Source of the DNA: Oceanimonas doudoroffii
GTDB taxonomy: Bacteria; Pseudomonadota; Gammaproteobacteria; Enterobacterales; Aeromonadaceae
Assembly: GCF_002242685.1 (NCBI RefSeq)
Contig: NZ_NBIM01000001.1
Coordinates: forward strand, 1,364,001 to 1,428,000
DNA: 64,000 bases
Reading direction: 5' to 3'
Both the position numbers and the translations under genes were made by a program. Every line of letters begins with the position of its first letter. Position 1 is the first letter of the stretch. Positions 6,524 to 31,734 of this stretch are shown in pieces. Under the pieces are notes generated by a model, which saw only the letters and a program-made list of their open reading frames with translations, was not told the DNA's origin and ran no database searches.

Positions 6524-8161
6524 TTAGTCGCCCCTCGGCTCCGACATCAGCCCCTTGATCAGGGCCACACAGGAGATCAGCAGCACTATGGTAAAGGGAA
6601 AACCGGTAGACACCGACATGGCCTGCAGGCCGGCCAGGCCACCGCCCAACATCAGGGCGATGGCCACCAGGCCCTCAAAGGTGCACCAGAATACCCGCTG
6701 AGGCTTGGGCGCATTGACCTTGCCGCCGGCGGCGATGGTGTCGATCACCAGGGAGCCGGAATCGGATGAGGTTACGAAGAACACCACCACCAGCACGATG
6801 CCGATAAAGGAGGTAATGGCGGTCAGCGGCAGATCCTCCAGCATCACAAACAGCTGCAACGGCAGATCGGCGTCGGCCACCGCCTGATAGCCTTCGCTTA
6901 CCAGCTGGTGAATGGCGGTACCGCCAAAGGCGCTGAACCACAGCATGCAGGCGGTGGTGGGCACCAGCAGCACCGCCACCAAAAACTCGCGCACGCTGCG
7001 GCCGCGGGAAACCCGGGCGATAAACATGCCGACAAAGGGTGACCAGGAAATCCACCAGGCCCAGTAGAAGGAGGTCCAGCCCTGGGAGTAATTGGCGTCT
7101 TCACGACCAAAGGGCATGGACAGCGCCGGAAAATACTCAAAATAGGAGACGATGTTGGAGAAGAAACCACTGAAGATCATCAGGGTCGGTCCCACGATGA
7201 TCACGAACACCAGCAGCAGTGCCGCCAGTGTCATATTGATCTCCGACAGTCGTTTCACCCCGGCATCCAGACCGGCCAGCACCGATACCAGGGCCACCGC
7301 GGTGATCAGAATCACCAGGACCACCTGGGTGGTGGTGGTATCGGGAATACCGAACAAAAAGTTCAGCCCGGCAGAGGCCTGAGCAGCGCCATACCCCAAC
7401 GACGTGGCCAGACCAAACAGGGTGGCCACCACCGCCAGAATGTCAATCACATGGCCCGGCCAGCCCCATACCCGCTCGCCCAGCAGCGGATAGAGCACAG
7501 AGCGCATGGTCAGCGGCAGGCCCTTGTTAAAGGAGAAAATGGCCAGCCCCAGCGCCAGCACCGCATAGATGGCCCAGGGGTGCAGCGCCCAGTGATACAG
7601 GGTGGCGGCCATACCCAGCCGAGTGGCCTCGGCGGCGTCACCGGCGGCGGCCCCCAGCGGCGCCCAGTCGGTACGCACGCCGTTTTCCACCGTGGTGCCG
7701 GCCATGGAGGTACTGAAATGGGAGAGCGGCTCGGAAACGCCAAAGAACATCAGGCCAATGCCCATGCCGGCGGCAAACAACATGGAAAACCAGCCCAGGT
7801 AGGTGAAGTCGGGCGTGGCCTGGGTGCCACCAATACGCACTCGGCCCAGAGGAGAGAGGATCAGTCCCAGGCACACCAGCACAAAGATATTGCCGGCACT
7901 CAGGAAAAACCAGTCCAGGGTCGAGGTCAGCCAGCCGCGCAGGCTGCTGAACATGGGACCCACCTGATTTTGAAACGCCAGGGTGAGAAAGACAAAGGCC
8001 ACAATGGCCAGTCCGGAAATGAGAAAGACCCGGTTGTGAATGTCGAGTCCGAATGGCCCTATCTGCAGGGCAATGTTGTCCTGCCCTATCTGATAATCCG
8101 TATCAATGGGATTGGCCTTGCCCTCGGGGGCGATAACATCGTGGTTATCCTGTTCTGCCAT
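6524..8161 (-). CDS. BCCT-family transporter (betaine/onium compound uptake)
   Basis: Secondary transporter of the betaine/choline/carnitine family, 545 residues, about 12 membrane helices in the inner membrane. It has the GMGIG motif at 132-136 (typical of sodium-coupled glycine-betaine carriers such as BetP) and the aromatic helix FYWAWWISWSPFVGMFIARVSRG. The frame is open 90 bases further upstream, but the ATG at 8161 has an AAGGAAG site and yields the N terminus expected by comparison with the paralogue at 23573-25249. It lies directly downstream of the Rieske/aldehyde dehydrogenase pair but is separated from it by a terminator, so it may have its own promoter. Substrate (glycine betaine, carnitine, proline betaine or DMSP) is not resolved. 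Confidence 0.9.
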   Translation of the reverse strand: MAEQDNHDVIAPEGKANPIDTDYQIGQDNIALQIGPFGLDIHNRVFLISGLAIVAFVFLTLAFQNQVGPMFSSLRGWLTSTLDWFFLSAGNIFVLVCLGLILSPLGRVRIGGTQATPDFTYLGWFSMLFAAGMGIGLMFFGVSEPLSHFSTSMAGTTVENGVRTDWAPLGAAAGDAAEATRLGMAATLYHWALHPWAIYAVLALGLAIFSFNKGLPLTMRSVLYPLLGERVWGWPGHVIDILAVVATLFGLATSLGYGAAQASAGLNFLFGIPDTTTTQVVLVILITAVALVSVLAGLDAGVKRLSEINMTLAALLLVFVIIVGPTLMIFSGFFSNIVSYFEYFPALSMPFGREDANYSQGWTSFYWAWWISWSPFVGMFIARVSRGRSVREFLVAVLLVPTTACMLWFSAFGGTAIHQLVSEGYQAVADADLPLQLFVMLEDLPLTAITSFIGIVLVVVFFVTSSDSGSLVIDTIAAGGKVNAPKPQRVFWCTFEGLVAIALMLGGGLAGLQAMSVSTGFPFTIVLLISCVALIKGLMSEPRGD

Positions 8162-8350
8162 GAAAGTACTTCCTTTATAAAGGGAATATGTTGTTTTCAA
8201 CCTGCAAATGGTAGCACAGGCAGGGAGGCAAATGGGATTCATCAAGCACACTCGGGCAGGAATTAAACAGGGTAAAAATCAACCCCGGCGGGCTGCTTCG
8301 ACCTCGTTATTTTGCCAGAATGAATGACCACCACGCCGGCAGAAAGCCAT

Positions 8351-8382
8351 AAAAAAACCCCTGGCTGCAGGCAAGCCAGGGG
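8351..8382 (-). terminator. Rho-independent terminator of the Rieske-ALDH operon
   Basis: A perfect 9-bp stem CCCCTGGCT (8358-8366) with AGCCAGGGG (8374-8382) and a 7-base loop, followed on the minus strand by seven T (8357-8351). It ends the transcript of the aldehyde dehydrogenase gene. Confidence 0.92.
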
Positions 8383-8424
8383 AAATACAACAGATAGGGC
8401 AGTCAGGGTAAAAACCGATACAAC

Positions 8425-9891
8425 TTACTGCTTGATGGCGATACCAATGTTCTTGGTTTGCACATAGTTGAGCAGGGCCTCACGTCCTTTTTCACGACCA
8501 TACCCGGACTTGCCATAGCCACCAAACGGGGTTTCCACACCGCCGGCATACCATTCATTGACAAAAATCTGCCCGGCCCTCAGGTCACGAGCCACCCTCA
8601 TGGCCCGATTCACATCGGCGGAGTAGACGCCGCCGACCAGGCCATAATCGGTCCCGTTGGCAAGGGCAATGGCTTCTTCTTCGGTGCTGAACTTCAATAC
8701 CGCCACCACGGGACCAAATACCTCATCCCGGGCAATTTCCATGTCGGGGGTGACCTCGGCCACCACGGTCGGGGCCAGGAAATATCCGGCCTGCTCGATC
8801 CGTTGGCCACCCGCGGCAATGCGGGCTCCCTGCTCCTCGGCAAGCGTGCACATGGCCTCGGCCTTGTCGCGCTGCTGCCGGGAGATCATGGCGCCCATGT
8901 TGGGGCCAAACTCCGAAAAGCGGCGGCCTTCGCCCACACTCAGCCGGCTTGCCATGTCGGCTACCCGAGTGACCACCTGGTCATAGACCGACTCATGCAC
9001 GATAAGGCGGGACATGGCGGAGCAGACCTGACCGGCATTGAAGAAAATGCCCCAGCGCACGTCTTCTACCAGGGCGTCAATATTCGCGTCATCAAACACC
9101 AGGGCCGCCGATTTGCCGCCCAGCTCCAGCACGCAGGGCACCACGTTTCTGGCGGCCGCCTCGGCGATGGCGATGCCGGTCGGCACCGAGCCGGTGAACA
9201 CCAGCTGATTGATATCGGGGTGTGCCGACAGGGCCGCCCCCGCTTCTTTGCCATAGCCGCACAAAATATTCAGGGCGCCGGCCGGCAGACCCACATGCTC
9301 TGCGGCCCGGGCAAGGTAGCCCACCGACAGCGGATCCAGCTCCGGGGTCTTGACCACACAGGTATTGCCCGTGGCCAATGCCGCCGATACCGAGCGGGCC
9401 GTCATCTCCAGGGGGTAATTCCACGGAATAATATGCGCGGTCACGCCATAGGGCTCATATACGGTAAAGTCGTAATACTGCCCGCCGAGGGGAATGGAGC
9501 GTCCCTCCATGGTCTCGGCCTGATTACCGTAATATTCGAAATAGCGGGCGGCACTTTCGACTTCCAGCTTCGCTTCCCAGTAGGGTTTGCCTGCATCCAG
9601 GCACAGCACTTGCGCGATTTCGTCGAGGTTATCCAGCAGGTACTGACCCATGCGCTGCACCAGCCTACCCCGCTCCACCGGCACCATGTGCCGGAATTCC
9701 CCCTGCTGATGGCAACGCTTTGCCGCCTGCACGGCCAGATCCACGTCTTCGGCAGATGCGCAGGCCTGAGTGGCAATCACTTGGTCGGTACCGGGATCGG
9801 ATACCGGTACCGGGCTTGCCTGACCGTCAACCCAGGCTCCGTCGACAAAGTTAAGCCAGTGCTCGCGGGGCAGTGTCCATTGTTCAGTCAT
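8425..9891 (-). CDS. NAD(P)-dependent aldehyde dehydrogenase paired with the Rieske oxygenase
   Basis: Aldehyde dehydrogenase superfamily enzyme of 488 residues. It has catalytic Cys290 (NAGQVCSA), general base Glu256 (LELGGKSA), Asn158 (PWNYP) and cofactor-binding Lys181 (KTPE), so it should be a hydrolytic ALDH giving a free acid. Its start overlaps the stop of the Rieske oxygenase gene by 8 bases, a strong sign that it oxidises the aldehyde made by that oxygenase. In carnitine degradation this would be malic semialdehyde; for an N-demethylating oxygenase it would be another aldehyde. It resembles betaine-aldehyde-type dehydrogenases, but no gene name is safe. Confidence 0.85.
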   Translation of the reverse strand: MTEQWTLPREHWLNFVDGAWVDGQASPVPVSDPGTDQVIATQACASAEDVDLAVQAAKRCHQQGEFRHMVPVERGRLVQRMGQYLLDNLDEIAQVLCLDAGKPYWEAKLEVESAARYFEYYGNQAETMEGRSIPLGGQYYDFTVYEPYGVTAHIIPWNYPLEMTARSVSAALATGNTCVVKTPELDPLSVGYLARAAEHVGLPAGALNILCGYGKEAGAALSAHPDINQLVFTGSVPTGIAIAEAAARNVVPCVLELGGKSAALVFDDANIDALVEDVRWGIFFNAGQVCSAMSRLIVHESVYDQVVTRVADMASRLSVGEGRRFSEFGPNMGAMISRQQRDKAEAMCTLAEEQGARIAAGGQRIEQAGYFLAPTVVAEVTPDMEIARDEVFGPVVAVLKFSTEEEAIALANGTDYGLVGGVYSADVNRAMRVARDLRAGQIFVNEWYAGGVETPFGGYGKSGYGREKGREALLNYVQTKNIGIAIKQ

Positions 9892-10978
9892 TGATAGCTT
9901 CCCTTACCCAGTTATGAATGGCGACCAGTGAGTGCTCTGACATCACGCCTTCTTCCGGATCGACCACCAGCGGGCCGCCCCGATAACCTCGGCTGTTGAG
10001 GCCGCGTTGTACCGACTCAACCAGTACCAGGTCCTCCGCGACCGTAGTGTCGTGATCCTGCTTGGCCAGCTGACGAATCACATCCGACTCTTCCCCACCT
10101 ATGGTGTACCAGCCGCGATAAACCAGTACCTTGTCAACGGCAACCGGCCGCCAGTGATAGGTGTTCAGCACGTTGCCGGGATAAACCTGGAACGAAAAGC
10201 CGGGCCACAGGAACCAGGACTTGTAGCGGGTGGCATAGGCATTCGAGGTCGGATCAACCGGATAGGTCATTCTCTCAAGGTTCTGACACTCGGTAGTATG
10301 CTGCAGGGTATGGCCCACATGCTTGACGTTGTAAGTCTCGGGCTTTATGACGCCATCGACAAAGGTCTTGTGATTGGCCCCGCAGTGGTAACACTCGGAG
10401 TAGTTCTCGACAGAGACTTTCCAGTTACAGTTTTCAAAGATTTCAACAAACTCAAGGGGTTTGAGTTCGTCGATATGGGGCACGTACTCACGCAGCTCGT
10501 CACGAACGCCCGGAAACACCTCATCCATCGGCTTGGCATTCGGGTCCAGGTTCACGAAGATAAAACCGCAAAAGATTTCAGTGCTCACCTGGGGCAGGCA
10601 AATCTTGCCCTTGTCCAGCCCCCTGACCGAGTCCAGGTTGGGACCATTGCGCAGTTGTCCGGTGAGATCATAACCCCAGGTGTGGTAAGGGCATACCAGC
10701 ATGCGCGTGTTGCCCGACTCGTTCTGTACTATCTCGTGGCCTCGATGCTGGCACACATTGTAGAAGGTGCGAATGTCGCCCTTGCGGTCACGCACACAGA
10801 ACAGGCTTTCTCCGGCAATCTCCAGGCGAAAGTAATCACCCTTGTTAGGAATTTGTGATATGTGCCCCGCAAACTGCCAGGTAGTCGCCAGCAGTGTCTG
10901 CTTTTCTTTTTCATAAATGGCAGGATCGTTGTAGTACTTGGGCTCGAGAGCAAAGATCAAGCTGTCGTGATTACTCAT
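9884..10978 (-). CDS. Rieske oxygenase of the quaternary-ammonium (CntA/YeaW/Stc2/GbcA-like) group
   Basis: Oxygenase component of 364 residues that probably cleaves or demethylates a quaternary ammonium compound. The [2Fe-2S] Rieske centre is C76-x-H78 and C96-x2-H99. The mononuclear iron site is His198, His203 and Asp316. The residue linking both centres is Glu195 (ENYSECYH), where classical ring-hydroxylating dioxygenases have Asp; Glu here is the known signature of carnitine monooxygenase CntA and relatives. The C-terminal block VESVQRGLNSRGYRG also matches that group. It is first in an operon with the aldehyde dehydrogenase. No reductase gene is adjacent; the candidate lies at 26469-27416. 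The exact substrate is open. Confidence 0.85.
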   Translation of the reverse strand: MSNHDSLIFALEPKYYNDPAIYEKEKQTLLATTWQFAGHISQIPNKGDYFRLEIAGESLFCVRDRKGDIRTFYNVCQHRGHEIVQNESGNTRMLVCPYHTWGYDLTGQLRNGPNLDSVRGLDKGKICLPQVSTEIFCGFIFVNLDPNAKPMDEVFPGVRDELREYVPHIDELKPLEFVEIFENCNWKVSVENYSECYHCGANHKTFVDGVIKPETYNVKHVGHTLQHTTECQNLERMTYPVDPTSNAYATRYKSWFLWPGFSFQVYPGNVLNTYHWRPVAVDKVLVYRGWYTIGGEESDVIRQLAKQDHDTTVAEDLVLVESVQRGLNSRGYRGGPLVVDPEEGVMSEHSLVAIHNWVREAIND

Positions 10979-11229
10979 CGCTAATATCTCACCTAAAAAT
11001 AAGCACTTAAGTCATTACTGACTAGGTTTCACCGCATACATGCCCTTCTGCATCCATGCACGATCACGAAGATACGTCAGCGCCATCAATAAAAAAATTT
11101 ATTTTTAGCTAACAGTTCATTTACTTTTATTAACCAATATCATCACACGAACAGCGAGGGCCTCGAAGACATGCTCTGGCCGCAACGAAGCCTGTGCCTT
11201 CCCCCTTCAAGCAAGGCCTTGACCCAATA
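10979..11229 (-). promoter_or_regulatory. Upstream region of the Rieske operon
   Basis: About 250 bases without a plausible gene, AT-rich around 11085-11135 with a near-symmetric block of A and T runs at about 11088-11112. It must contain the promoter of the oxygenase-ALDH operon. I could not fix -35 and -10 boxes with confidence. Confidence 0.4.
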
Positions 11230-11266
11230 AAAACTGCCAGCCGGGTTAGCCCCGGCTGGCAGTTTT
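11230..11266 (-). terminator. Rho-independent terminator of dddD
   Basis: A 16-bp perfect stem: AAAACTGCCAGCCGGG (11230-11245) pairs with its complement at 11251-11266 around TTAGC. Read on the minus strand it ends in TTTTTATT. It stops dddD transcription before the Rieske operon promoter. Confidence 0.92.
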
Positions 11267-11307
11267 ATAAACAACGGTTTTTACGGTGAGTCTCGAACGC
11301 TGGCGGC

Positions 11308-13821
11308 TCAGCTGGGCAGGTATTCCCTTCCCCAGAACTCGCCGGCAATGCGGGCCGCCAGCATGTCATCTATCTGCTCTGCGCTGTACCCCAGCCCCGC
11401 CAGTATGGTGCGAGTGGAGTGGCCAAACTGCTCGGTTGGGGTGAGCGCAACCAACGGCGCCTCGGCAGGCCGAATCGAGTAATGATCGATCTGGGTGACC
11501 TTGTGGCCGCTGGGGTGGTTATCGTAAACCGAAAAGGCGTAGCTGCCCCTGTCGGTACCTACCCGGCCGTCGGCCTGACGGCTGTATGCTTCCCGCAGCT
11601 CTTCAATGCTGAGCGGCCTGGCGGCGGCGATATCGGCCTCGTGCAGCATCTTGACCCAGTAATCGGCACTGGCCGCGCGAAACGCCTCGGTGAGAAACAG
11701 GCCAAGGTCAGTTGCCTTCTCGATGCCTGCCAGTCCTTCGACCGCGGCCAGCTTATCAAGCTCGCTCCAGCCGGCATCCAGGTATACCCAGCCGTCACTG
11801 GCCTGGTAGAAGTGGGACAAGGGGTGATTCCCCAGCGCTTGCCGGCCGGACGCTTCATCAAAGGGCGCCCGCCCCTGATAGTCAAAGGCAAACGAGACCT
11901 GGGCCAGGTTGGTGATGGCCGACAGCGAGGTTCTGGCGCGAGAAACGGCCCCGGTTTTCAGCTTGTGATAAAGCGCAACCGCCATGCCCAGGCCGCCGGC
12001 AAAACCACAGTTCACATCCAGGGTGCCCAGGTGGGCATGCTCTTCCGGCGTGCTCGGCCCCCCAAAGCGGCTCATGATGCCGCTGTTGGCCTGAATGATG
12101 TCGTCATAGCCGATATAGTCGGTCTTGGGGCCGCGCCGTGGGCCCCCCAGGCAGTCGAGGCGGCAGAACAGCACACCCGGATTGATCGCCTGCAGGCTGT
12201 CATGATCCAGCCCCAGGGGGCGCATTTGCCGCTCCGGGGCATTGATGACCACCATGTCCACGGAACGCACCAGCCGGTTAAACACTTCCCGGCCTTCAGG
12301 GGTGGTGATATCCACCAGGACACTCTTTTTACCCATGCCGGTCTGAAAGCTGAACAGGGTGCCGATCAGCGGATCATAAAACGGGGTCACCGGGTCCAGC
12401 TTGATCACCTCGGCGCCAAAGCGTCCGAGAAAGGCGGTGGAGTGAGGACCGGCAATCACGTTGGTCAGATCCAGCACCTTCAGGCCATCCAGCCAGCCTG
12501 ATTGCCGAGCCGGCGCTATCTCCGCACCCTGAGGACGGGTAATCACCTCCCGCTGCGCCACCAAAGTCAGCTCGGCGAGCGCCTGCTCAAAGCTGACATT
12601 GGCCCTCGGACGGGGAGACAGCATCTGCTCGGCACACTCTTCCAGCCAGGCGATGGGGCCGGGTTGCTTCATCGATCCGAACTCCGGATCCTGCACCTCC
12701 ACAATCAACCCGGCGGCATTGGTATGCTCGTCATTGACCCACTCCTGCGTGGTTCTGTGGGGAGCGCCGGGAATCTGACCTTCTCCAAAGATACGCCCCC
12801 ACTCGGTCGAGGTTTTGGTCAGAAAGACATTCTTCATGCGGGCGGAAATAATATCGGCCCACTTTTTAGGCAGGGGATAGACACCGATGGAGGTTTCACC
12901 GCTCCACTCGGCAATGGGCAGGAACAGGTCCTCTACATCCGGCAAGCCATCGGCGACCAGCTGCTCATAGAGTCCCAGCGCCTTCAGGCAGCGCTTGGCG
13001 TGATGACGGTGGGACGGGCATACCACATAAAACATGCGGCCATCGGCACACTCGTAAGTGCGGTAAAAGGGATCCAGGTATTCCTGCAGATCCTCATAGC
13101 TCACGTCCATGGGCCGGTTGGCTGCCCGGCGACGCTCAATCTCCTCTTCCCGCATGGTCTTGTAGCGCTCGGGCATGCCTTCAATCACGATGGAGTTGTA
13201 GGACAGGCCCTCCATCAGTGCGGCGGCAATGGGCACCTCAATGGCATCGCCGCGGCCGGATTTTTCCCGGGCCAGCAGGGCCATGACCACCGAGCTGGCG
13301 GCCAGGGTGGTGGCATAGGCCGATCCCAGAGGCAAGGGGGAGAAACTGGGATTCAGCCCCATAAGTACCCGGTTGAACCCCATGTCGGTAAAGGCACCCG
13401 AGGTGGCGGCCACCACGGCCTCGGTGGCTTTCCATTCGCGGCGCAGTTGATCATTGCTGGCAAATCCCGGCAGCGACAGGGTAACCAACTCCGGACGCGC
13501 GGCCCGCAATTGCTCAAAGTCGATGCCCAGCCTTTTCATGACGCCGGGCCGAAAGCTTTCAATAACCACGTCGGCCTGCTCAATCAATGCCAGTGCCCGC
13601 GTTAATTCGGAAGCTTGTTTCAGATCCAGGCGAAGGCAGCTTTTGTTGCGATTGAGAATGGCATTGGCCGGATGATCCCATTGCGGGCCGGCGGGCGGGT
13701 CGATATGCACCACGGTCGCACCGAGATCCGCCAGTATCATGGCCACTGCCGGACCGGCAATCTGCTGACCAAAATCCACAACACGGACACCCGACAACGG
13801 CAATGAATGAGTTTGTTTCAT
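11308..13821 (-). CDS. dddD: DMSP CoA-transferase/lyase DddD
   Basis: Class III CoA-transferase fusion of 837 residues that converts dimethylsulfoniopropionate plus acetyl-CoA into dimethyl sulfide and 3-hydroxypropionyl-CoA, in the cytoplasm. Two CaiB-like domains are visible (about 1-430 and 445-837). The second carries Asp602 in the HLGTLDVNCGFAGG segment, at the same number as the catalytic Asp reported for Marinomonas DddD. The first domain has PLGSAY where that Asp would fall, so it lacks the nucleophile. Length, fusion and gene order (divergent from a BCCT gene, then Fe-alcohol dehydrogenase, CoA-acylating aldehyde dehydrogenase and LysR) make the identification strong. It has its own terminator. 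Confidence 0.96.
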   Translation of the reverse strand: MKQTHSLPLSGVRVVDFGQQIAGPAVAMILADLGATVVHIDPPAGPQWDHPANAILNRNKSCLRLDLKQASELTRALALIEQADVVIESFRPGVMKRLGIDFEQLRAARPELVTLSLPGFASNDQLRREWKATEAVVAATSGAFTDMGFNRVLMGLNPSFSPLPLGSAYATTLAASSVVMALLAREKSGRGDAIEVPIAAALMEGLSYNSIVIEGMPERYKTMREEEIERRRAANRPMDVSYEDLQEYLDPFYRTYECADGRMFYVVCPSHRHHAKRCLKALGLYEQLVADGLPDVEDLFLPIAEWSGETSIGVYPLPKKWADIISARMKNVFLTKTSTEWGRIFGEGQIPGAPHRTTQEWVNDEHTNAAGLIVEVQDPEFGSMKQPGPIAWLEECAEQMLSPRPRANVSFEQALAELTLVAQREVITRPQGAEIAPARQSGWLDGLKVLDLTNVIAGPHSTAFLGRFGAEVIKLDPVTPFYDPLIGTLFSFQTGMGKKSVLVDITTPEGREVFNRLVRSVDMVVINAPERQMRPLGLDHDSLQAINPGVLFCRLDCLGGPRRGPKTDYIGYDDIIQANSGIMSRFGGPSTPEEHAHLGTLDVNCGFAGGLGMAVALYHKLKTGAVSRARTSLSAITNLAQVSFAFDYQGRAPFDEASGRQALGNHPLSHFYQASDGWVYLDAGWSELDKLAAVEGLAGIEKATDLGLFLTEAFRAASADYWVKMLHEADIAAARPLSIEELREAYSRQADGRVGTDRGSYAFSVYDNHPSGHKVTQIDHYSIRPAEAPLVALTPTEQFGHSTRTILAGLGYSAEQIDDMLAARIAGEFWGREYLPS

Positions 13822-15934: not shown

Positions 15935-16028
15935 GCACTACGGGAATGAGCGCGGGCCGAGTGGCCCGTGCCCAAAAACCATCCACACTCATCATGCAAA
16001 CCATGGTTTAACAGGAACGGAGTTTTCC

Positions 16029-21203: not shown

Positions 21204-21319
21204 CAAACGTCCATGTCGTCGTCATTCACACATAACCGCATTAACCCTTGCTAATGCGACATATAGAATCTGCGGGACAATAATCAGCACACTCCCGGCG
21301 CCCTGCTTACTCCCAAAAG

Positions 21320-21349: not shown

Positions 21350-21371
21350 GGATTATTTACCACAGTTAACG

Positions 21372-23450: not shown

Positions 23451-23526
23451 ATAAAGCTCGACTGTAGTGAGTCCGAACATACGGGCAATGATGAGCGTTT
23501 CACCAGGCTTCAGGCCTGATAAAGCC

Positions 23527-23550
23527 CGAAGCCTGCCATCGCAGGCTTCG
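23527..23550 (-). terminator. Intercistronic hairpin between the two BCCT genes
   Basis: A 10-bp perfect stem CGAAGCCTGC (23527-23536) with GCAGGCTTCG (23541-23550) and a 4-base loop. On the minus strand it is followed only by GGGCTTTATC, so it may be a leaky terminator or an RNA-stabilising hairpin rather than a full stop. Confidence 0.6.
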
Positions 23551-23572
23551 GCATCATCACCGGCAATACGGT

Positions 23573-25249
23573 TTATTTATGCTTCAACAAAACAGGTTTA
23601 TTTCCCTGAGCTATTTTTCCCTTCACAGGCTCATCCCTGAGTCCCTTGATAACAGAATAAGAGGCAACCAGCAGTACAATGGCAAAGGGAAGCCCGGTGG
23701 ACACCGTCATGGCCTGCAGCGCACTCATTCCGCCGCCCAGAATCAGTGCCACCACCACCACACCCGAGCTCATGCACCAGAATACCTTCTGGGGGATCGG
23801 CGTTTCCATCTTGCCGCCGGCCGCCATGGAATCCAGCACCAGAGCGCCAGAGTCTGCCGAGGTAATAAAGAAGATCACAATCAACATCATGGTGATGAAA
23901 GAGGTGATTTCGGCCAGTGGCAAGCGGTCAAGCATTACAAACAGCTTGAGGGGCAGGTCGGCTTCCTTCAATGCGGTGTAGCCGCCATTGAAATACATAT
24001 CCAGTCCCAATCCACCAAACACACTGAACCACAAAATGCAGACCGATGAGGGTATCAGCAGCACGGCAATCATAAATTCGCGCACCGTCCGTCCTCGGGA
24101 AATACGGGCGATAAACATGCCAACAAAGGGACTCCAGGCAACCCACCAGGCCCAGTAAAAGGCACTCCAGCCCGCCGCGAAATTCTGATCGCTCCGGCCA
24201 AAAGGATTGGACAGCTCGGGCAGAAAACCCAGATAGGCGATGAAAGAGTCACCAACGCCACCTATTATCTGCAAGGTGGGTCCCACCATCACCACCAGCA
24301 GCAGCAAAATTGCGGCCAGTATCATATTGATTTCAGATAGCTTCTTGATGCCAGCCTTGATTCCCAGCAATACCGAGACCAGGGCGCCTCCGGTGATCAG
24401 TATGGCAATGATGATCTGGGCCAGATCTCCATCGGGCAGGCCGAACAGGTAGTTCAGGCCGGAAGCGGTCTGTGCCGAGCCAAAGGACAGGGTGGGCGCA
24501 ATACCAAAGATCGTCGCCACGATGGCCAGCACATCAATCACATGCCCGGGCCAGCCCCAGATACGCTCACCCAAAATCGGGTAAAACATGGAGCGCATGG
24601 TCAGCGGCAGGCCTTTGTTAAAGGCGAACAGCGCCAGGGCCAGGGCCATAAAGGCATAAATACCCCAGGCGTGCAGGGCCCAGTGATATGCCGACGCCGC
24701 CATGCCCACACTGCCCGATGCGACGACATCTCCCGGAGTGCCTCCCAGCGGACTCCAGTCTGATCTGATGCCCTGTTCATTGACCACTGCCCCACCGTAG
24801 GAATCAAGGGCATGGGTCAGGGGCTCGGACACACCGAAGAAAATAAGACTGGTCCCCATTCCCGCCGCAAACAGCATCGAAAACCAACCCAGGTAACTAT
24901 AATCCGGTTTTGCATCCGTCCCGCCCAGCCTGACACTGCCCAGCCGAGTCACGGTCACCAGAATACAGACGAGCAAAAAGATATTGGCGGCCATAATAAA
25001 AAAGCCACTCAATTCAACCGTCAACCAGTCTCTCATGGTGACAAAAATAACTTCGGCAAGATCCTGAAACACGATAGAAAAGAACGCTATCGACAATACG
25101 ATAATACCGGCGGTAATAAATACTCGATTGTGTACATCAAAGGAAATGGGGCCAATGCTTGATTTTATATTATCCTGGCCAAGTTCATAGTCTGTTTCAA
25201 TACTGTTTACATGGCCATCGGGCGAGATCACTTTCTCTTTGTCAGTCAT
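23573..25249 (-). CDS. BCCT-family transporter, paralogue of the 6524-8161 carrier
   Basis: Carrier of 558 residues with about 12 helices and the helix FYWAWWVAWSPFVGMFIARISRGR. Its N-terminal segment (SPDGHVNSIETDYELGQDNI) closely parallels that of the carrier at 6524-8161, so the two are paralogues. Its glycine motif reads GMGTSLIFFG instead of GMGIG, which may alter ion coupling or specificity. The frame opens 84 bases earlier; the ATG at 25249 has AAGGAG eight bases upstream and was chosen. It follows the epimerase-like gene, separated by a hairpin. Confidence 0.9.
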   Translation of the reverse strand: MTDKEKVISPDGHVNSIETDYELGQDNIKSSIGPISFDVHNRVFITAGIIVLSIAFFSIVFQDLAEVIFVTMRDWLTVELSGFFIMAANIFLLVCILVTVTRLGSVRLGGTDAKPDYSYLGWFSMLFAAGMGTSLIFFGVSEPLTHALDSYGGAVVNEQGIRSDWSPLGGTPGDVVASGSVGMAASAYHWALHAWGIYAFMALALALFAFNKGLPLTMRSMFYPILGERIWGWPGHVIDVLAIVATIFGIAPTLSFGSAQTASGLNYLFGLPDGDLAQIIIAILITGGALVSVLLGIKAGIKKLSEINMILAAILLLLVVMVGPTLQIIGGVGDSFIAYLGFLPELSNPFGRSDQNFAAGWSAFYWAWWVAWSPFVGMFIARISRGRTVREFMIAVLLIPSSVCILWFSVFGGLGLDMYFNGGYTALKEADLPLKLFVMLDRLPLAEITSFITMMLIVIFFITSADSGALVLDSMAAGGKMETPIPQKVFWCMSSGVVVVALILGGGMSALQAMTVSTGLPFAIVLLVASYSVIKGLRDEPVKGKIAQGNKPVLLKHK

Positions 25250-25310
25250 TTCAAAGACTCCTTCATACTTAAAGCAAGTATTCCGAATAATCTTGATAAG
25301 GCGATTCATG

Positions 25311-25340
25311 CCTGAGCTGGCATGAATCGCCATGAGATCA
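25311..25340 (-). terminator. Intercistronic 12-bp hairpin
   Basis: GCGATTCATGCC (25311-25322) pairs perfectly with GGCATGAATCGC (25329-25340) around TGAGCT and overlaps the last codons of the epimerase-like gene. No T-run follows on the minus strand, so it is more likely a processing or stability hairpin than a true terminator. Confidence 0.5.
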
Positions 25341-26453
25341 GGAAATTACAAACAGGGGCTCTCCGAGCACACTTAGATAAGGAGACACTCCCAGACCCGG
25401 CGCATCGGTCACTGATGCAAAGCCTTCGCTGACAAAGTAACTTTCGTGGGACAGTTTGGGGCTGACATAATCGGCCAGATTGCACACGTTCATAATGGCG
25501 CCCTGCTCTGTCGAGGTAGCAAGGTGCATTAGGGCACTGGTGGTGATGTCACTGCCCCAGGTGTCTTCAATGACCATTTTGGTGCCAATTTCCAGGCACA
25601 GATCGCGAGCCCGGCGGGTGGCACTGATACCACCAAACTTGGACAGCTTCAGTGCCGCCGCATCCATGCAGCCCAGCTGATGCCCATGCAACAGGCTGTG
25701 AATATCATGCACGCTCTCATCCAGCTTCATGGGCAGGCCCGTGGTTTGCCGCACCACATTGCAACTCTCGATGGTGGCGCAGGGCTGCTCCAGCATCACA
25801 TCCAGTGATGACAAGGCGCGACCGGCACGAATGGCATCCAGCTGACTGGCGCAGCAGTTCCAGTCGCCAAATACCAGCGGGCCAGTTCCCACGGCGGCCC
25901 GCACCGCTTCCATTCGCTCCACATCCCGGCGCCAGTCATTGTCACTACCGAGCTTGACCTGGAATTGACGGATCCCTTGCTGATAACCTTCTTTGGCGAT
26001 ATCGGCCATTTTTTCCGGGTCGCTGCAGGTAATGGACTTGTATAACGGCAGCTTTTCGGTTTGCAGGCCGCCAAGCAGGCGGTACAGCGGCAACCCCGCT
26101 TCCTTGGCGGTCAGATCCCACAGCGCAATGTCGATGGCCGACTTGGCGTAAACGTGCCCGATCAGGTGCTTGTCCAGCTTACGCATCAGTGCTTCCGGAC
26201 CAATGGGATCCGCGCCGATCAGCACCTCGGCCATTTCCGAAATGGCAGGAATGACGCCATCGGCATAGGCGGGCAAATAGTGCGGAATGGGACAAACCTC
26301 ACCCCAGCCACAAATACCGGCATCCGTGTCGATTCTGACGATAATGGACGGTACCGAAAGGCAGACCTTGCCACCGGCCATGTAATAGGGCACATGGCTT
26401 TCCAGAGCGATTTTCCACACACTAACTTTGGTAATAGTTGTCATGATGTTCAT
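25338..26453 (-). CDS. Enolase-superfamily enzyme, betaine epimerase / hydroxyproline dehydratase-like
   Basis: Mandelate racemase/muconate lactonizing enzyme fold, 371 residues. Predicted acid-base lysines are Lys167 (FQVKLG) and Lys269 (ALKLSKFGG); metal ligands are Asp197 (GDWN), Glu222 (LEQPC) and Asp245 (LDES). The blocks IGHVYAKSAIDIALWDL and LKLSKFGG resemble 4-hydroxyproline betaine 2-epimerase (HpbD) and cis-3-hydroxyproline dehydratase. Both act by removing a proton next to a carboxylate. It starts 15 bases after the reductase gene and precedes two BCCT genes, so a betaine substrate is plausible. A second ATG at 26444 is an alternative start. Which reaction it performs cannot be told from sequence. 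Confidence 0.8.
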   Translation of the reverse strand: MNIMTTITKVSVWKIALESHVPYYMAGGKVCLSVPSIIVRIDTDAGICGWGEVCPIPHYLPAYADGVIPAISEMAEVLIGADPIGPEALMRKLDKHLIGHVYAKSAIDIALWDLTAKEAGLPLYRLLGGLQTEKLPLYKSITCSDPEKMADIAKEGYQQGIRQFQVKLGSDNDWRRDVERMEAVRAAVGTGPLVFGDWNCCASQLDAIRAGRALSSLDVMLEQPCATIESCNVVRQTTGLPMKLDESVHDIHSLLHGHQLGCMDAAALKLSKFGGISATRRARDLCLEIGTKMVIEDTWGSDITTSALMHLATSTEQGAIMNVCNLADYVSPKLSHESYFVSEGFASVTDAPGLGVSPYLSVLGEPLFVIS

Positions 26454-26468
26454 CCATGAAGGTTGATG

Positions 26469-27416
26469 TTAGATATCAAGCACCAAAACGTCAGACTTTG
26501 CCCGTGACACACAAATACACATGCAATCGCCTTCGGCTTTTTCTTCGTCGTCGAGTACGTTGTCCCTGTGATCTATTTCTCCATCCAGCACATCGGTAAT
26601 GCAGGAACCGCACAAGCCGGATGAGCAGCCGTAATGAATATCAAACCCCTTGTCCTTGAGCACGGCAAGAATGGTCTGGTCGGAAGGAATTTCTATGTTT
26701 TCACCACTTGAATTAATCACCACGGTAAAGGGAGTATTTTCAACATCCCCTTCCGTGGCCGGTGCGGCGAATCGCTCAAAATAAACGGTGCCGCGCTTGT
26801 GTTCGGCGCTGACCGTTTGCAGGCGATTAAGCAGGGGCTCGGGGCCGCAGATGTAGTAATGACAGTCTTCGGCTTGAGCCAGTACAAAGGCGTCAAAATC
26901 AAGAAAACCGTCTACCTCATCGCAATGCAGGTGGTAATTGTCGCCCAGCTCCAGTTGGTTGAATAAAGCATCAAAGGCGGCATGCTCATGGCTTCTGACC
27001 AGGTAATAAACACTGAAGTCACGACCGGCTTTCTTTAATTCACACGCCATGGAGTAAATGGGCGTTACCCCAATGCCGCCGCCTATCAGCACGATGGGCT
27101 CATCACTGCTCTGCAACGCAAAGTTATTGCGTGGGCCGCCAATCTCAATTTCAACCCCCAGCTCAAGCTGATGCATCGCCAGCGAGCCGCCCCGGCCATT
27201 GTCCTCACGCTTTACCGCGACAGAAAACGATGTTCCGTCGTCCTGCCATTCCCAGACCGAGTAGTTTCTGACCAGATCGGGGCCCAGAAAAACGTCCACA
27301 TGACATCCGGCTTCAAATGACTCGAACGCGCCATCTATCGCCTCAAAGGTAAAGTTGCAGATTTCATCACTGAGATAATTCTTTTTTGCCAAACGGGCAC
27401 GAATAGTATCAGCCAT
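26469..27416 (-). CDS. Flavin/[2Fe-2S] oxygenase reductase (CntB/VanB-type)
   Basis: Electron-transfer protein of 315 residues in the order flavin domain (RNYSVW at 50-55), NAD(P)H domain (GGGIGVTPI at 112-120; CGPEPLL), plant-type ferredoxin domain with cluster ligands Cys264, Cys269, Cys272 and Cys302. This is the layout of reductases that feed Rieske oxygenases such as carnitine, vanillate or phthalate oxygenases. The only Rieske oxygenase in the window is at 9884-10978, more than 15 kb away beyond the ddd cluster, and is the likely partner. A strong GAGGAG site precedes the ATG. It is first of a tight pair with the epimerase-like gene. Confidence 0.9.
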   Translation of the reverse strand: MADTIRARLAKKNYLSDEICNFTFEAIDGAFESFEAGCHVDVFLGPDLVRNYSVWEWQDDGTSFSVAVKREDNGRGGSLAMHQLELGVEIEIGGPRNNFALQSSDEPIVLIGGGIGVTPIYSMACELKKAGRDFSVYYLVRSHEHAAFDALFNQLELGDNYHLHCDEVDGFLDFDAFVLAQAEDCHYYICGPEPLLNRLQTVSAEHKRGTVYFERFAAPATEGDVENTPFTVVINSSGENIEIPSDQTILAVLKDKGFDIHYGCSSGLCGSCITDVLDGEIDHRDNVLDDEEKAEGDCMCICVSRAKSDVLVLDI

Positions 27417-27492
27417 GATGTCACTCCTCTTACATCACCAACAATTCAACTCACAATTATCATTTCGGGAGAACATGATGATTGCGCCTCGT

Positions 27493-28356
27493 TTACTGTT
27501 TGTTTTCCCGGGCGGCCACCAGCGCCAGTCGTGCCAGCAGCTTTTCCGCCCGCCGTGCCACCGGCAGATCGATCATTTTGCCGTCCACGGCAATGGCCCC
27601 CACGGCATCCCGGCTGGCCTGGGCGAACGCCTCAACAATGCGCCGGGCCAAAACCACTTCTTCCTCGCCGGGAGAAAACACACGGTTAAGCACCTCAACC
27701 TGGGCCGGGTGAATGGCAAAACCGCCGGAAAAACCAAGGGGCAACGAGCGGCTGACACTGGCCTCAAAGGCGGCAATGTCGCGAAATTCGGCAATGCTGC
27801 CCACGTAACCCAATACCGCAATACCGGCGGCCTTGCAGGCAATGTTCACCTGCATGCTGGGCACCAGCAGGCTGTCCCAGCAGGGGGTCATTTCCATATC
27901 AAAAGACAGATCTTCCGTGCCCACGCTCAGCGCCAGCAGGCGGGGGTGTGCTGCCGCGATCTCCGCCGCGTTCAGCAAACCCGCCGGGCTTTCAATCAGG
28001 CCGATAATGCCAATGTCCGTTTCGTCCAGGGCGCTGGCCAGGGTTTGCACCTGCAGCGCACTTTCCACCTTGGGCAGCACCACCAGATTGGCGCCGGCGC
28101 CGATAACGGCCGGCAGATCCAGGGCCAGCAGATCGTTGGGGGCATTCACCCGCACCGCCGCGTCCTTGCCGGCCTGACGAATTTGTTGGCAGTGCATGGC
28201 CAGCGCCTGGCGCGCCTGGGGCTTGGTGGCCGCCGGTACCGCGTCTTCCAGATCCAGTACGATCACATCGGCACTACCCGCTACCGCCTTGCCCACCAGT
28301 TTTTCGTTTTGTCCGGGTACATACAAAAGAGAGCGCATGATTCCTGGCGTTTTCAT
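27493..28356 (-). CDS. ccl: HpcH/HpaI-CitE family lyase, probable (S)-citramalyl-CoA lyase
   Basis: CoA-ester lyase of 287 residues. It shows the CitE motifs RSLLYVPGQ, VIVLDLEDAV, Arg69 (VRVN), Glu122 (GLIESPAG) and Asp149 (VGTEDLSFDM), the last two being the likely Mg ligands. With the ict- and ich-like genes of the same operon it should split citramalyl-CoA into acetyl-CoA and pyruvate, the last step of itaconate (or mesaconate) breakdown. Its ATG overlaps the stop of the MmgE/PrpD gene by 4 bases. Malyl-CoA lyase activity is an alternative. Confidence 0.84.
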   Translation of the reverse strand: MKTPGIMRSLLYVPGQNEKLVGKAVAGSADVIVLDLEDAVPAATKPQARQALAMHCQQIRQAGKDAAVRVNAPNDLLALDLPAVIGAGANLVVLPKVESALQVQTLASALDETDIGIIGLIESPAGLLNAAEIAAAHPRLLALSVGTEDLSFDMEMTPCWDSLLVPSMQVNIACKAAGIAVLGYVGSIAEFRDIAAFEASVSRSLPLGFSGGFAIHPAQVEVLNRVFSPGEEEVVLARRIVEAFAQASRDAVGAIAVDGKMIDLPVARRAEKLLARLALVAARENKQ

Positions 28357-29729
28357 TTGCTTTCTCCCGCCGCCTGCTGAGCGGTCACAAACAGGGAGGT
28401 TCGCACCAGCGGCGCCGTTTCATCATCCCGCAGCAGTGCCTTGGCCAGTTCGAAGGGCAGGCCGCAGTCATGTACCTTTTGCAGCAGCTGTGCTTCGGTC
28501 ATCGGCATATCGGCTCCCCCCGGCACCGCCAGGCCTTCATCCACCAGTTGCTTGCCACTTTCCAGCGTCACCACCAGGGTTTCGGGGCTGGTGGGGCCGA
28601 TATCACCGGAGTGCCCAGCCGGCAGCTCGTAAAGGTCCAGTTCAACCAGGCCGGTCAACTGGCGCCGCGCCTGATCACGAAACGCCCGTTCGTTAAAGTC
28701 ATCCGGCGTCACATGACCACAGAGCAGGCCGGCGGCCACGCAATAAGGAATGGAGAAACGGGCCTCGGCATCGTTTTCAGGCAGGCCAAAATGAGCCACC
28801 TGATGGAAAGGCCGCGGCATGCGATACTGCACCTGAACGATGGCGTCGCCCGGCGTCAGTTGCGCAGAAATCCGCTCGGCGCTCATGATGGCGCGCTGGG
28901 TATAGGCGCAGCTGGGCCACAGCTTGCGAATCACCGGATACAGCCGCACTCCCTGCCCCAGCTCGGCGCGGGCCATGGCCTGAGAAAACCCGGGTGAGTC
29001 CGAGGTGCCATAAAGGCTGATAAAGCCGGACGGAATATCCCAGAGTTCGGTATTGGCGGTGGCCCCGGCCTTGGCCATCAGGGCCGCCCGAAGGCCGGCC
29101 TGGGCGGCCAGGCCTTCGTGAATGGCCTTGGCGTGAGAGCCGGTCTGGCGCAGGGTGCCTGCCGAGGAGCTGGCCGCCAGCGCCATGGCATGGGCCATGC
29201 GTTCGCGGTCAAGCCCCAGGGCACGGCTAACGGCCGCCGCCACGCCCACAGGGCCCAGGGTCAGGGTGGAGTGCCAGCCCTTGTCATAGTGGCCATAACC
29301 CAACGCCTGCCCCATTTGCACAATGGCTTCATGGCCGACCAGCCAGGCATCACAGACTTCCCTGATGGACAGCCCACGGGCAGACGCCAGGCTGAACAGG
29401 GCACTGAACAGCGGGCCGCTGGCATGGCTGGAGCCGGACAATTCATAATCGTCAAAGTCCAGGGCATGCACACGGGCCCCGTTCAGCAGGGCGGCACCAC
29501 TCAGGGTATGACCCTGTCCGCCACCGACAGCCACCACGCTGCCACTGTCTCCATCCTCCTGCAGGGCTGCCGCCACCGCCAGGGGCTGGTGCATGTCCTT
29601 ACCCAGGAACATACAGGCCAGGGTATCTACCAGACTGAAACGGGCGACGGCCCGGGCCTCCTGGCACAGCGCCAGCTCGGGAGCCGTTGCCCAGGTGCAA
29701 AACTGTTCGGAAAAAGCGGATAGGGTCAT
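28353..29729 (-). CDS. MmgE/PrpD family protein of the itaconate operon
   Basis: Protein of 458 residues of the family that includes 2-methylcitrate dehydratase, cis-aconitate decarboxylase and iminodisuccinate epimerase. Typical features are GGGQGHTLSGAALLNGARVHALDFDD-type sequence near residues 68-92 and GWHSTLTLGPVG. The Pseudomonas aeruginosa itaconate (rip) operon also carries an MmgE/PrpD gene of undefined role. Here it might isomerise or decarboxylate a C5/C6 dicarboxylate before CoA activation. It lies between ich and ccl with a 12-base gap and a 4-base overlap. Confidence 0.82.
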   Translation of the reverse strand: MTLSAFSEQFCTWATAPELALCQEARAVARFSLVDTLACMFLGKDMHQPLAVAAALQEDGDSGSVVAVGGGQGHTLSGAALLNGARVHALDFDDYELSGSSHASGPLFSALFSLASARGLSIREVCDAWLVGHEAIVQMGQALGYGHYDKGWHSTLTLGPVGVAAAVSRALGLDRERMAHAMALAASSSAGTLRQTGSHAKAIHEGLAAQAGLRAALMAKAGATANTELWDIPSGFISLYGTSDSPGFSQAMARAELGQGVRLYPVIRKLWPSCAYTQRAIMSAERISAQLTPGDAIVQVQYRMPRPFHQVAHFGLPENDAEARFSIPYCVAAGLLCGHVTPDDFNERAFRDQARRQLTGLVELDLYELPAGHSGDIGPTSPETLVVTLESGKQLVDEGLAVPGGADMPMTEAQLLQKVHDCGLPFELAKALLRDDETAPLVRTSLFVTAQQAAGESK

Positions 29730-29741
29730 GGGAATACCTTG

Positions 29742-30584
29742 TTACTGTTCCAGAAAGACGGCTTCAGCCTGCATCGCCAGCGCGTTGTCATGGCGTCGGG
29801 CCCAGAGCTTCATCACGTTACCTTCGCGCCGGCCTTCAATCTTGAAGGAATGGTTGGCGGTGATCGGCGCCAATCCCTTGAAGCTGAAGCGGGCGGGCTG
29901 ACGTCCCATGGTGCGCGTGGCCAGATCAACCAGCAGGGTGGCGGTCAGCGGACCATGGAATACCAGGCCTTCGTAACCTTCTACATCCCGGGAGTAGTCC
30001 ACATCGTAATGAATACGGTGGCCATTAAAGGTCAGGGCCGAATAGCGATACAGCATCACCTCGGTGGGAGACACCGTCTCGACCACATCGGCGTCGTCGG
30101 GCGCCAGTTTGGGAGCGGGCTGCGGCGCATCGGCGGCGGGATCTTCGCGGTAAACAATGTCCTGCTCCTCGGTGAAAGCCAGGTGACTACCGGAATAAAT
30201 CTCGTGCAGCACGGTCACAAAGCACAGGGCACCGGTGCGGCCTTCCTTGTGGGTAATGTTGCTGATGGTTGACACCTTGCGAACCGGCTCCCCCATGCGC
30301 AGCGGCGCCAGAAACTCAAAACGTCCACCCGCCCACATCCGCCGGGGCAGGTCTACCGGGGGCAGAAAACCGCCCTTTTTCGGGTGACCATCCCGGCCCA
30401 GCAGGGATGCCGGTTTGGCTTCCAGAAAATACAGCCAGTGCCACAGGGGCGGCAGTTCATCGCCTTTTTTCAGCAGCGCGTCCCGATCCAGGGTGGCTTC
30501 CATAAAACGGGCCGGTTGCAGGCGCAGTTCGTCCTCAAAGGTTTCACTGCGGCCCAGCCAGTTCATTACGTTACTTTCAGACAT
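29742..30584 (-). CDS. ich: MaoC-like hydratase, probable itaconyl-CoA / mesaconyl-C4-CoA hydratase
   Basis: Double-hotdog hydratase of 280 residues. The N-terminal half is the FAS1-type dehydratase domain, and the C-terminal half carries the hydratase segment ALTFNGHRIHYDVDY (183-197) followed by VFHGPL. It should add water to itaconyl-CoA (or mesaconyl-CoA) to give citramalyl-CoA. The frame is open 75 bases upstream; the ATG at 30584 has AAGGAAG and overlaps the ict stop by 8 bases, indicating coupling. Confidence 0.84.
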   Translation of the reverse strand: MSESNVMNWLGRSETFEDELRLQPARFMEATLDRDALLKKGDELPPLWHWLYFLEAKPASLLGRDGHPKKGGFLPPVDLPRRMWAGGRFEFLAPLRMGEPVRKVSTISNITHKEGRTGALCFVTVLHEIYSGSHLAFTEEQDIVYREDPAADAPQPAPKLAPDDADVVETVSPTEVMLYRYSALTFNGHRIHYDVDYSRDVEGYEGLVFHGPLTATLLVDLATRTMGRQPARFSFKGLAPITANHSFKIEGRREGNVMKLWARRHDNALAMQAEAVFLEQ

Positions 30585-31734
30585 TGAAGGCTTCCTTTTG
30601 CTGCTGCTTGGTAAACTCCTGACGCACCCGTTCGGTATCGGCGCCGGTCGCCGGAGCATGGCCTGATTCGTGGTGAGGGATGGCGTCCAGCCAACGAATG
30701 GGGGCCGCCGGAATGCTGACGGTAGCGCCGTTGTCGGTACCGACTTCCCGACGGCGCAGGGCCGGATGCTGCCCCAGCTCGGCCACGCTGTTTACCGCGC
30801 CAAAGGCGATGCCGGCTTCGCTCAGTCGAGCCTTGAATTCATTCTGGTCAATGGTGCGGGTCACCCCGGTGATCAGCTGTTCCAGCTCCTCACGGTGGCG
30901 AACCCGCTCGTTGTTGGACTGAAAACGTTCGTCCTGAGCAATGGCGGCATCACCCAGCACGATCTCGCAGAAACGCGGCCATTCCCGATCGTTTTGAATG
31001 GAAATCAGGGTCAGCGCGCCTTCACGGGTTTCAAATGCGCCATACGGAGCCATGCTGGGGTGTTTGAGGCCCACCCGTTTCGGCGCGCCCTTGCCATATT
31101 CCTCGTGCATAAGCGGCACACTCATCCAGTCGGCGGCAACGTCAAACAGCGAAACCGCCAGGGCCGAGCCTTCACCGGTACGCTCCCGTTTCATCAGGGC
31201 CTCAAGCACGGCGGCATGGGCGGTCATGCCCGCGCCGATATCACAGATGGACACTCCGATGCGGCCCATCTCATTCACCCCGCCGCTGATGCCGGTCAGG
31301 CCGGACTCCGCCTGGATCAGAAAGTCGTAGGCCTTGAGGTGGCGTACCGCCTCACTCTCTCCGTAACCGGTAATGTCCAGGGTGATCAGCCGAGGGTAAT
31401 CGCGGCGCAGCCGCTCGGCGCCAAACCCGGCCCTGGCCATGGCGCCCGGCGCCAGGTTCTGAATAAAGACATCGGCCTCGGCCAGCAACTGCTCAAGCAG
31501 CTCGGCATCGTCCTGTTCACGAAAATTAAGGACCACCGACTCTTTGTCCTGGTTGGTCCAGGTGAAATAAGAGCTGGCGCCCTTGGCCGCCCGATCATAG
31601 CCGCGGGCAAAATCGCCCTCGGCCCGTTCCACCTTGATGACCCTGGCACCGGCCTCGGCCAGCCTGGCCGTGCACAGTGGGGCCGCCAGGGCCTGTTCAA
31701 TGGATACAACCAGCAAACCTTCCAGTGGTCGCAT
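30577..31734 (-). CDS. ict: CaiB/BaiF CoA-transferase, probable itaconate CoA-transferase
   Basis: Single-domain class III CoA-transferase of 385 residues. The catalytic Asp is Asp165 in VSICDIGAGM; PLCTARLAEAGARVIKVE near the N terminus is the CoA-site signature. It should activate itaconate (or a related C5 diacid) with succinyl-CoA. It opens the operon ict-ich-mmgE/prpD-ccl. The frame runs 42 bases further upstream, but the ATG at 31734 is preceded by GGGAGGG. Unlike DddD it is not fused. Mesaconate as substrate is an alternative. Confidence 0.84.
   Translation of the reverse strand: MRPLEGLLVVSIEQALAAPLCTARLAEAGARVIKVERAEGDFARGYDRAAKGASSYFTWTNQDKESVVLNFREQDDAELLEQLLAEADVFIQNLAPGAMARAGFGAERLRRDYPRLITLDITGYGESEAVRHLKAYDFLIQAESGLTGISGGVNEMGRIGVSICDIGAGMTAHAAVLEALMKRERTGEGSALAVSLFDVAADWMSVPLMHEEYGKGAPKRVGLKHPSMAPYGAFETREGALTLISIQNDREWPRFCEIVLGDAAIAQDERFQSNNERVRHREELEQLITGVTRTIDQNEFKARLSEAGIAFGAVNSVAELGQHPALRRREVGTDNGATVSIPAAPIRWLDAIPHHESGHAPATGADTERVRQEFTKQQQKEAFNV

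Follow-up and report, generated by a model that had tools for sequence, protein, structure and literature searches.

A DMSP-degradation gene cluster lodged inside an accessory Rieske oxygenase cluster of Oceanimonas doudoroffii

Why does a complete ddd cluster for the use of dimethylsulfoniopropionate (DMSP) lie between two groups of genes that look like halves of one betaine-type Rieske oxygenase system? The question is raised by a 64,000-nucleotide stretch of the Oceanimonas doudoroffii genome (contig NZ_NBIM01000001.1, forward-strand positions 1,364,001 to 1,428,000), referred to at its full length as the window and numbered from its first letter; all genes named below are open frames at the coordinates given. 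An earlier note, made from the sequence alone, had proposed that the two groups work together as a split onium-degradation pathway surrounding a DMSP pathway. Comparison with related genomes confirms the arrangement: the ddd cluster is lodged inside one outer accessory cluster, between two likely transcription units. That the flanking regions, at 8.4-11.1 kb and 21.4-33 kb, form a single accessory gene cluster is a reading of the architecture in which we have high confidence.

The left part of this cluster consists of a CntA-like Rieske oxygenase gene (9884-10978; Rieske and Ring_hydroxyl_A domains above cut-off, carnitine monooxygenase in the Protein Data Bank (PDB) at 7e-61) and an aldehyde dehydrogenase (ALDH) gene in the same operon (8425-9891; Aldedh, 524 bits), both on the minus strand. 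The right part, also on the minus strand, includes a BetT-like BCCT carrier (21372-23480), a further BCCT carrier (23573-25333), an MR/MLE enzyme of the enolase superfamily (25338-26453; N- and C-terminal MR_MLE domains, nearest PDB entry 4mgg at 1.1e-72) and a phthalate dioxygenase reductase (PDR)-type flavin/ferredoxin reductase (26469-27416; phthalate dioxygenase reductase at 1.9e-59). It extends further, through genes that the earlier note had left out of its pathway: a CitE-type acyl-CoA lyase (27493-28356; HpcH_HpaI), an MmgE/PrpD family enzyme (28353-29729), a MaoC-type hydratase (29742-30659), a family III CoA-transferase (30577-31776; CoA_transf_3, 310 bits) and, divergently on the plus strand, a LysR regulator (32057-32962), all of which travel with the Rieske genes.

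The evidence for a single cluster comes from two other genomes. The scan of named species genomes for the Rieske protein relied on six exact peptide patterns of short length; of its 222 loci the best 80 were kept, so that other relatives may exist. Among the other genomes found, orthologues above 80% identity occur only in Marinobacter xestospongiae (88%) and Halomonas smyrnensis (82%). The M. xestospongiae cluster is contiguous, runs LysR, CoA-transferase, MaoC, PrpD, CitE, reductase, MR/MLE, BCCT, Rieske and ALDH at 75-88% protein identity, and is collinear with the window, without ddd genes there; the BCCT and Rieske genes are about 0.49 kb apart in that genome versus about 12.6 kb in the window, where BetT, an MFS gene and ddd intervene. 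The H. smyrnensis cluster is likewise contiguous and without ddd there (63-82% identity), in the order Rieske, ALDH, LysR, CoA-transferase, MaoC, PrpD, CitE, reductase, BetT and MR/MLE; its Rieske-ALDH pair stands on the opposite side of LysR, which indicates that the pair moves as a unit of its own. Thus 10 of the 11 cluster genes (Rieske, ALDH, reductase, MR/MLE, two BCCT, CoA-transferase, MaoC, PrpD, CitE and LysR) are found together in each relative, with one BCCT carrier per cluster: in M. xestospongiae an 86% homologue of the 23573-25333 gene, between MR/MLE and Rieske, and in H. smyrnensis a 68-73% homologue of BetT. In M. xestospongiae and H. smyrnensis respectively, ALDH orthologues (87% and 82%) directly follow the Rieske gene, and those of the reductase (75% and 63%) and LysR (87% and 74%) lie within the clusters. 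The only gene of the outer regions without a counterpart is the MFS transporter (19866-21206, minus strand), which has no orthologue in either cluster and just a 31% MFS relative in the H. smyrnensis locus. Whole-genome searches for dddD and for the reductase covered 31 of the 80 scanned genomes; dddD was not found in that of M. xestospongiae at E<=1e-150, and the dddD of H. smyrnensis is diverged (47% identity) and on a contig other than that of its Rieske cluster. As neither related cluster contains ddd, we reject the idea that it belonged to the outer cluster from early on. Co-inheritance of the two halves, as the earlier note had supposed, is therefore borne out: the comparison it proposed, for Rieske and reductase genes as neighbours without ddd, finds them so in both genomes, which also excludes that the two halves never occur together.

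The set is rare. At E<=1e-100 the Rieske protein matched only the window genome among 394 sampled from the order, one of 124 in the genus of M. xestospongiae (M. xestospongiae itself) and one of 275 in the family of H. smyrnensis (H. smyrnensis itself), the last being also the only genome of that family with a reductase match at E<=1e-85. Two of 22 congeners gave Rieske matches at E<=1e-40, at just 33% and 36% identity. Since 23 genomes of the window's genus and 124 of that of M. xestospongiae were available, and since the window genome was absent from the genus and family searches, three genera seem to be involved. A set so rare, yet nearly whole in each genome, speaks against chance and suggests that the outer cluster has been transferred as a unit between genomes.

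The island begins to the right of the BCCT carrier gene at 6524-8251 (minus strand). The earlier note had counted this carrier among the Rieske genes; it is instead genus core. Twenty congeners hold a DUF294 gene, the BCCT gene lies beside it in all seven of these loci that were fetched (L158-L164), and congener DNA homology stops at 8161, inside the BCCT gene, in the three congeners compared by blastn. In the congener nearest by DUF294 (L158, 5615-14775), the core BCCT is followed by a gene for a GGDEF protein and a LysR-like one and, after these, by BCCT-like, ALDH-like and 449-aa genes; onium modules may tend to settle at this site.

The ddd cluster itself is complete by sequence, with dddD, dddB, dddC and a BCCT carrier all present. 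On the minus strand, dddD (11308-13821) encodes an 837-aa protein with two CaiB-type domains (CoA_transf_3 in two stretches), divergent from plus-strand genes for a BCCT carrier (dddT, 14351-15934; 81-84% identical in congener loci L154-L156), an iron-type alcohol dehydrogenase (dddB, 16029-17186), a dehydrogenase of (methyl)malonate-semialdehyde type (dddC, 17245-18741; TIGR01722 at 674.7 bits, above its cut-off of 448.5) and a LysR regulator (dddR, 18854-19855). Some 8.5 kb long and sharply bounded, the cluster stands as a unit of its own between genes of the outer one. Against these congener loci, blastn places its left edge at 11303-11308 in all three and its right edge at 19807 in L155 and L156, the L154 stretch ending before that point; the shared extent (11303-19807) has 76-85% DNA identity. 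These three congeners carry ddd elsewhere, in the same gene order and without a Rieske orthologue, so that relative to other dddD-TBCR clusters the window's differs only by its location inside the Rieske cluster. Because ddd varies less than the core DUF294 protein (dddD identities of 89, 87 and 86% versus 92, 79 and 73%), it has probably moved between species. In two of these congeners ddd has other onium-type genes beside it: in L154 an MR/MLE gene, a GMC oxidoreductase, Lyase_1, two ALDHs and a BCCT-like gene, in L155 LysR, BCCT and ALDH genes. Two congeners (G021:C1 and G012:C22) also have dddD genes of another, diverged lineage (47-48%), and one of the two has the orthologous dddD as well.

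Did this insertion break a pathway? As read from the alignments, it cuts no gene and probably no operon. Homology around the Rieske gene between the window and M. xestospongiae spans 8426-11136 by blastn, extending beyond the Rieske start by 158 bp on the upstream side, such that an upstream region of the operon (10979-11136) has been kept. Between this region and ddd lies a terminator-like hairpin downstream of dddD (11230-11266, minus strand); the fold of 11215-11280 reaches -35.2 kcal/mol (z -5.84), with none of 200 shuffles as stable, although a pattern scan listed just a partial plus-strand form at the site. The 'split' of the earlier note is thus no broken pathway, ddd standing between two likely transcription units with a strong hairpin after dddD and the Rieske upstream homology intact. 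No convincing repeats were found at the ddd edges and no tRNA genes in the window. A sigma-70 scan of 8000-27500 gave 11 sites versus 11.3 in shuffles, and a terminator scan 28 versus 19.7 (standard deviation 4.3). For a motif common to the Rieske and CoA-transferase upstream regions, the shuffles as good among 200, at lengths of 16, 20 and 24, numbered 36, 44 and 5 in the window, 1, 10 and 8 in M. xestospongiae, and 37, 145 and 27 in H. smyrnensis.

What, then, does the outer cluster do? Its oxygenase is of the CntA/GbcA type: aligned with YeaW, the genome's own paralogues and PDB 6y8j, it conserves C-x-H, C-x2-H, NYSECYHC-x3-H and a distal ED, sharing with CntA/YeaW the glutamate of ECYHC and the distal aspartate; we take these residues to be the 2Fe-2S ligands and a facial triad with its bridging glutamate. 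It nevertheless belongs to a separate subfamily. In a tree, Klebsiella YeaW, to which it is 33% identical, is placed in a set of five rows (98/97) to which the window protein does not belong, and the GbcA equivalog NF058607 reaches 171.5 bits versus a cut-off of 670. In the same midpoint-rooted tree, in which CntA itself is not a row, incomplete rows G063, G074 and G088 are left out and a Phaeobacter row has a very long branch, the window protein groups with M. xestospongiae (97/92), then H. smyrnensis (95/100), all within a wider group (92/92) from which YeaW and the paralogues are separate. We compared 84 loci of this Rieske gene (80 from the genome scan and four plasmid regions, 30 of them under 20 kb), from related genomes, mostly of roseobacters, so that counts are not independent. 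Its neighbours there are an RpiR regulator (71 loci), a dimethylglycine dehydrogenase (DMGDH)-type enzyme (70), MR/MLE (65, with at least 50% identity in 50), a class III aminotransferase (45), a zinc alcohol dehydrogenase (44), AhpD (31) and ALDH (24 by clustering, 31 by tblastn). Two gammaproteobacterial metagenome-assembled genomes (L022 and L090) have an alphaproteobacterial-type Rieske neighbourhood. A zinc alcohol dehydrogenase, of the family common beside the alphaproteobacterial genes, adjoins the H. smyrnensis cluster (L021, 7934-8979); the window has none at that place.

The reductase is of the CntB/PDR type, with flavin-binding, NAD-binding and C-terminal 2Fe-2S Pfam domains above cut-off and a full-length match to phthalate dioxygenase reductase. 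The earlier note called it the only matching reductase, which is true of the M. xestospongiae and H. smyrnensis genomes, where the cluster reductase is the sole match at E<=1e-50, but not of the window genome, which has two further PDR-type reductases at that threshold (45% and 36%), each a few kb from its own CntA-like Rieske gene and ALDH, as well as six more distant matches (E 3e-14 to 1e-6). The two other CntA-like Rieske proteins of the genome are 36% and 33-35% identical to that of the window. By elimination, the other reductases lying near Rieske genes of their own, the reductase at 26469 would serve the window oxygenase, though such reductases can be shared; we consider a partnership of oxygenase, reductase and ALDH very probable. 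Rieske, ALDH and PDR reductase also go together in the genome's two other CntA-like operons and in the Klebsiella yeaW region, and the window resembles the CntA/CntB and YeaW/YeaX operons in joining Rieske, ALDH and a PDR/VanB reductase with a BCCT carrier (as in that region). It differs in having the reductase in another operon and in adding MR/MLE and itaconate-type genes.

The resemblance of the MR/MLE enzyme to betaine epimerases, pointed out in the earlier note, holds at the level of the family only. Its PDB matches include 2pmq/4h2h and 4e8g/4izg/4j1o, presumably hydroxyproline-betaine epimerases, and its best NCBIfam model, cis-3-hydroxyproline dehydratase (NF043002), scores 315.7 bits versus a curated cut-off of 500. 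It shares an enolase-superfamily branch with HpbD and cis-3-hydroxyproline dehydratase and has both lysines of catalytic type; plasmid genes annotated as c3-hydroxyproline dehydratase are 37-42% identical to it among the rows listed. The remaining genes resemble those of itaconate breakdown. The MaoC protein finds its best PDB match in itaconyl-CoA hydratase (1.5e-65), the PrpD protein matches IDS-epimerase (5.3e-43) and Bacillus subtilis IRG1 (3.8e-38), and the best NCBIfam model for CitE is RipC/Ccl (NF038242), at 166.7 bits of the 375 required. In Ensifer, a 55% homologue of the CoA-transferase shares an operon with genes for methylaspartate mutase, methylaspartate ammonia-lyase and a CoA ester lyase. 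Together these likenesses point to an exit through a C5 dicarboxylate, which we judge slightly better than an even bet. The known Ict-Ich-Ccl (rip) operon likewise has a family III CoA-transferase, an itaconyl-CoA-hydratase-like MaoC, a CitE-type lyase and LysR; the window differs in that its lyase falls short of the RipC cut-off and in combining the module with a Rieske system and BCCT carriers.

We hypothesize that the outer cluster degrades a betaine-like onium compound by C-N cleavage into a C5-dicarboxylate CoA route and that ddd is independent of it, an overall explanation that is the best available and reasonably probable. The BCCT carriers would import a zwitterionic onium compound; the oxygenase and PDR-type reductase would hydroxylate the carbon beside the onium nitrogen, so that the C-N bond breaks to give an amine and an aldehyde; ALDH would turn the aldehyde into a dicarboxylate; and the CoA-transferase, MaoC hydratase and CitE lyase would convert the dicarboxylate to acetyl-CoA and either pyruvate or glyoxylate as the small oxo-acid, on the model of itaconate/mesaconate breakdown. 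MR/MLE and PrpD may change stereochemistry or the position of a double bond or amine on the route, the LysR regulator at 32057 probably controls the outer cluster, and dddDTBCR would handle DMSP on its own. In yeaW-type operons the C-N bond of carnitine is cleaved to give an aldehyde; whether the window enzyme cleaves rather than demethylates is about an even call. Carnitine, gamma-butyrobetaine and crotonobetaine, the obvious substrates, were set aside on chemical grounds, as their products would not need the CoA module. If correct, a CntA-like oxygenase and an itaconate-type CoA route are joined here in a mobile cluster, which makes an onium pathway directly testable.

Several observations weigh against this hypothesis. 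Only two comparison clusters stand behind it, and these are the only two of the 84 Rieske loci with homologues (40% identity), within the stretches compared, of the reductase, CitE, PrpD, MaoC and LysR, the CoA-transferase appearing in one additional locus (L042). The reductase occurs at E<=1e-50 (34-42%) anywhere in just seven of the 29 other genomes searched whole, so that pairing with it is not a property of the Rieske subfamily. The DMGDH-type enzyme in 70 of the 84 loci fits a product that keeps its nitrogen, by demethylation or ring opening, and alphaproteobacterial relatives have this demethylase-type enzyme, often with an aminotransferase, in place of the CoA module, an indication that the product can retain nitrogen. 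Finally, we can name no betaine that yields a branched C5 dicarboxylate.

A rival is a cyclic imino-acid betaine route, in which MR/MLE epimerises proline betaine or hydroxyproline betaine, the Rieske enzyme then acts on it by demethylation or ring opening, the semialdehyde formed is oxidised by ALDH and the itaconate-type genes take the deaminated C5 acid. The NF043002 and PDB matches of MR/MLE speak for it, as does the pairing of MR/MLE with a DMGDH-type enzyme (one member checked) in alphaproteobacterial relatives. We nevertheless regard this route as possible but rather unlikely: MR/MLE falls under the NF043002 cut-off, the oxygenase is nearer to carnitine monooxygenase (209 bits, almost full length) than to 3vca (111 bits, residues 9-219), which we take to be the stachydrine demethylase Stc2, and there is no DMGDH-type gene in the M. 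xestospongiae (L020) or H. smyrnensis (L021) loci or among the annotated window genes.

Could the nesting of ddd instead have a function, with DMSP or related sulfonium or ammonium compounds being used jointly by the Rieske pathway and ddd through shared carriers and a shared semialdehyde dehydrogenase? In roseobacters, related Rieske genes (59-67% in tree rows) surround DddQ-type cupins, with MR/MLE at 58-61% in the listed alphaproteobacterial loci of closest type, although RpiR, a DMGDH-type enzyme, a class III aminotransferase and a zinc alcohol dehydrogenase stand where the window has the reductase and itaconate-type genes. Such cupins lie near the Rieske gene in 29 of the 84 loci (20 of the 54 of at least 20 kb) by one-sequence phmmer at E<=1e-8, weaker members of which may be other cupins, and in 26 by clustering; the single member compared with Pfam and PDB entries hits DddQ structures at 3.4e-87. 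BCCT-like and ALDH genes also stand beside ddd in two of the three congeners. Yet in the third ddd adjoins a BcsC-type cellulose-synthesis gene, all three congeners have ddd without a Rieske orthologue, both gammaproteobacterial relatives have the Rieske cluster without linked ddd, and the DddQ loci, mostly from roseobacters, are not independent; joint use seems improbable. In Roseovarius albus (L039, 4196-5376) two adjacent DddQ-type cupins lie beside the Rieske cluster.

The most interesting loose end is that one Rieske subfamily is associated with two unrelated types of DMSP-cleaving enzyme. A speculative account, to which we would give little weight, is that the Rieske and MR/MLE pair represents an uncharacterised oxygenase subfamily tied to DMSP metabolism, linked separately to DddQ in roseobacters and to the unrelated DddD here, and that it may oxidise a sulfonium or DMSP-like ammonium osmolyte to a semialdehyde finished by ddd enzymes or by the itaconate-type CoA route. 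The window's cluster offers a lead on why roseobacter DddQ-type genes sit among Rieske and MR/MLE genes. That the CoA-transferase, MaoC, PrpD, CitE and LysR genes are a separate dicarboxylate pathway merely adjoining the Rieske system might be suggested by stand-alone sets of LysR with CoA-transferase and MaoC on two plasmids, one of Caballeronia (where MFS and CoA ester lyase genes accompany them) and one of Paraburkholderia. It seems improbable, since in each of the three clusters the reductase and MR/MLE share one strand run with the module, and since the genes for Rieske and reductase, though rare, are found together.

Two further regions of the window lie to the right of the outer cluster. 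At 33820-36039 an ALDH gene and then a 2OG-Fe(II) oxygenase gene stand beside a LysR gene, without counterparts in the fetched stretches of the two related clusters. At 56290-62436, genes for an old-yellow-enzyme, an aldo/keto reductase, a luciferase-like protein and an MFS transporter, with neighbouring genes, are common to H. smyrnensis at up to 80% protein identity; the H. smyrnensis counterpart (L168) lies about 7-27 kb from its Rieske gene. The block is near the Rieske cluster in both genomes and perhaps belongs to a larger shared island.

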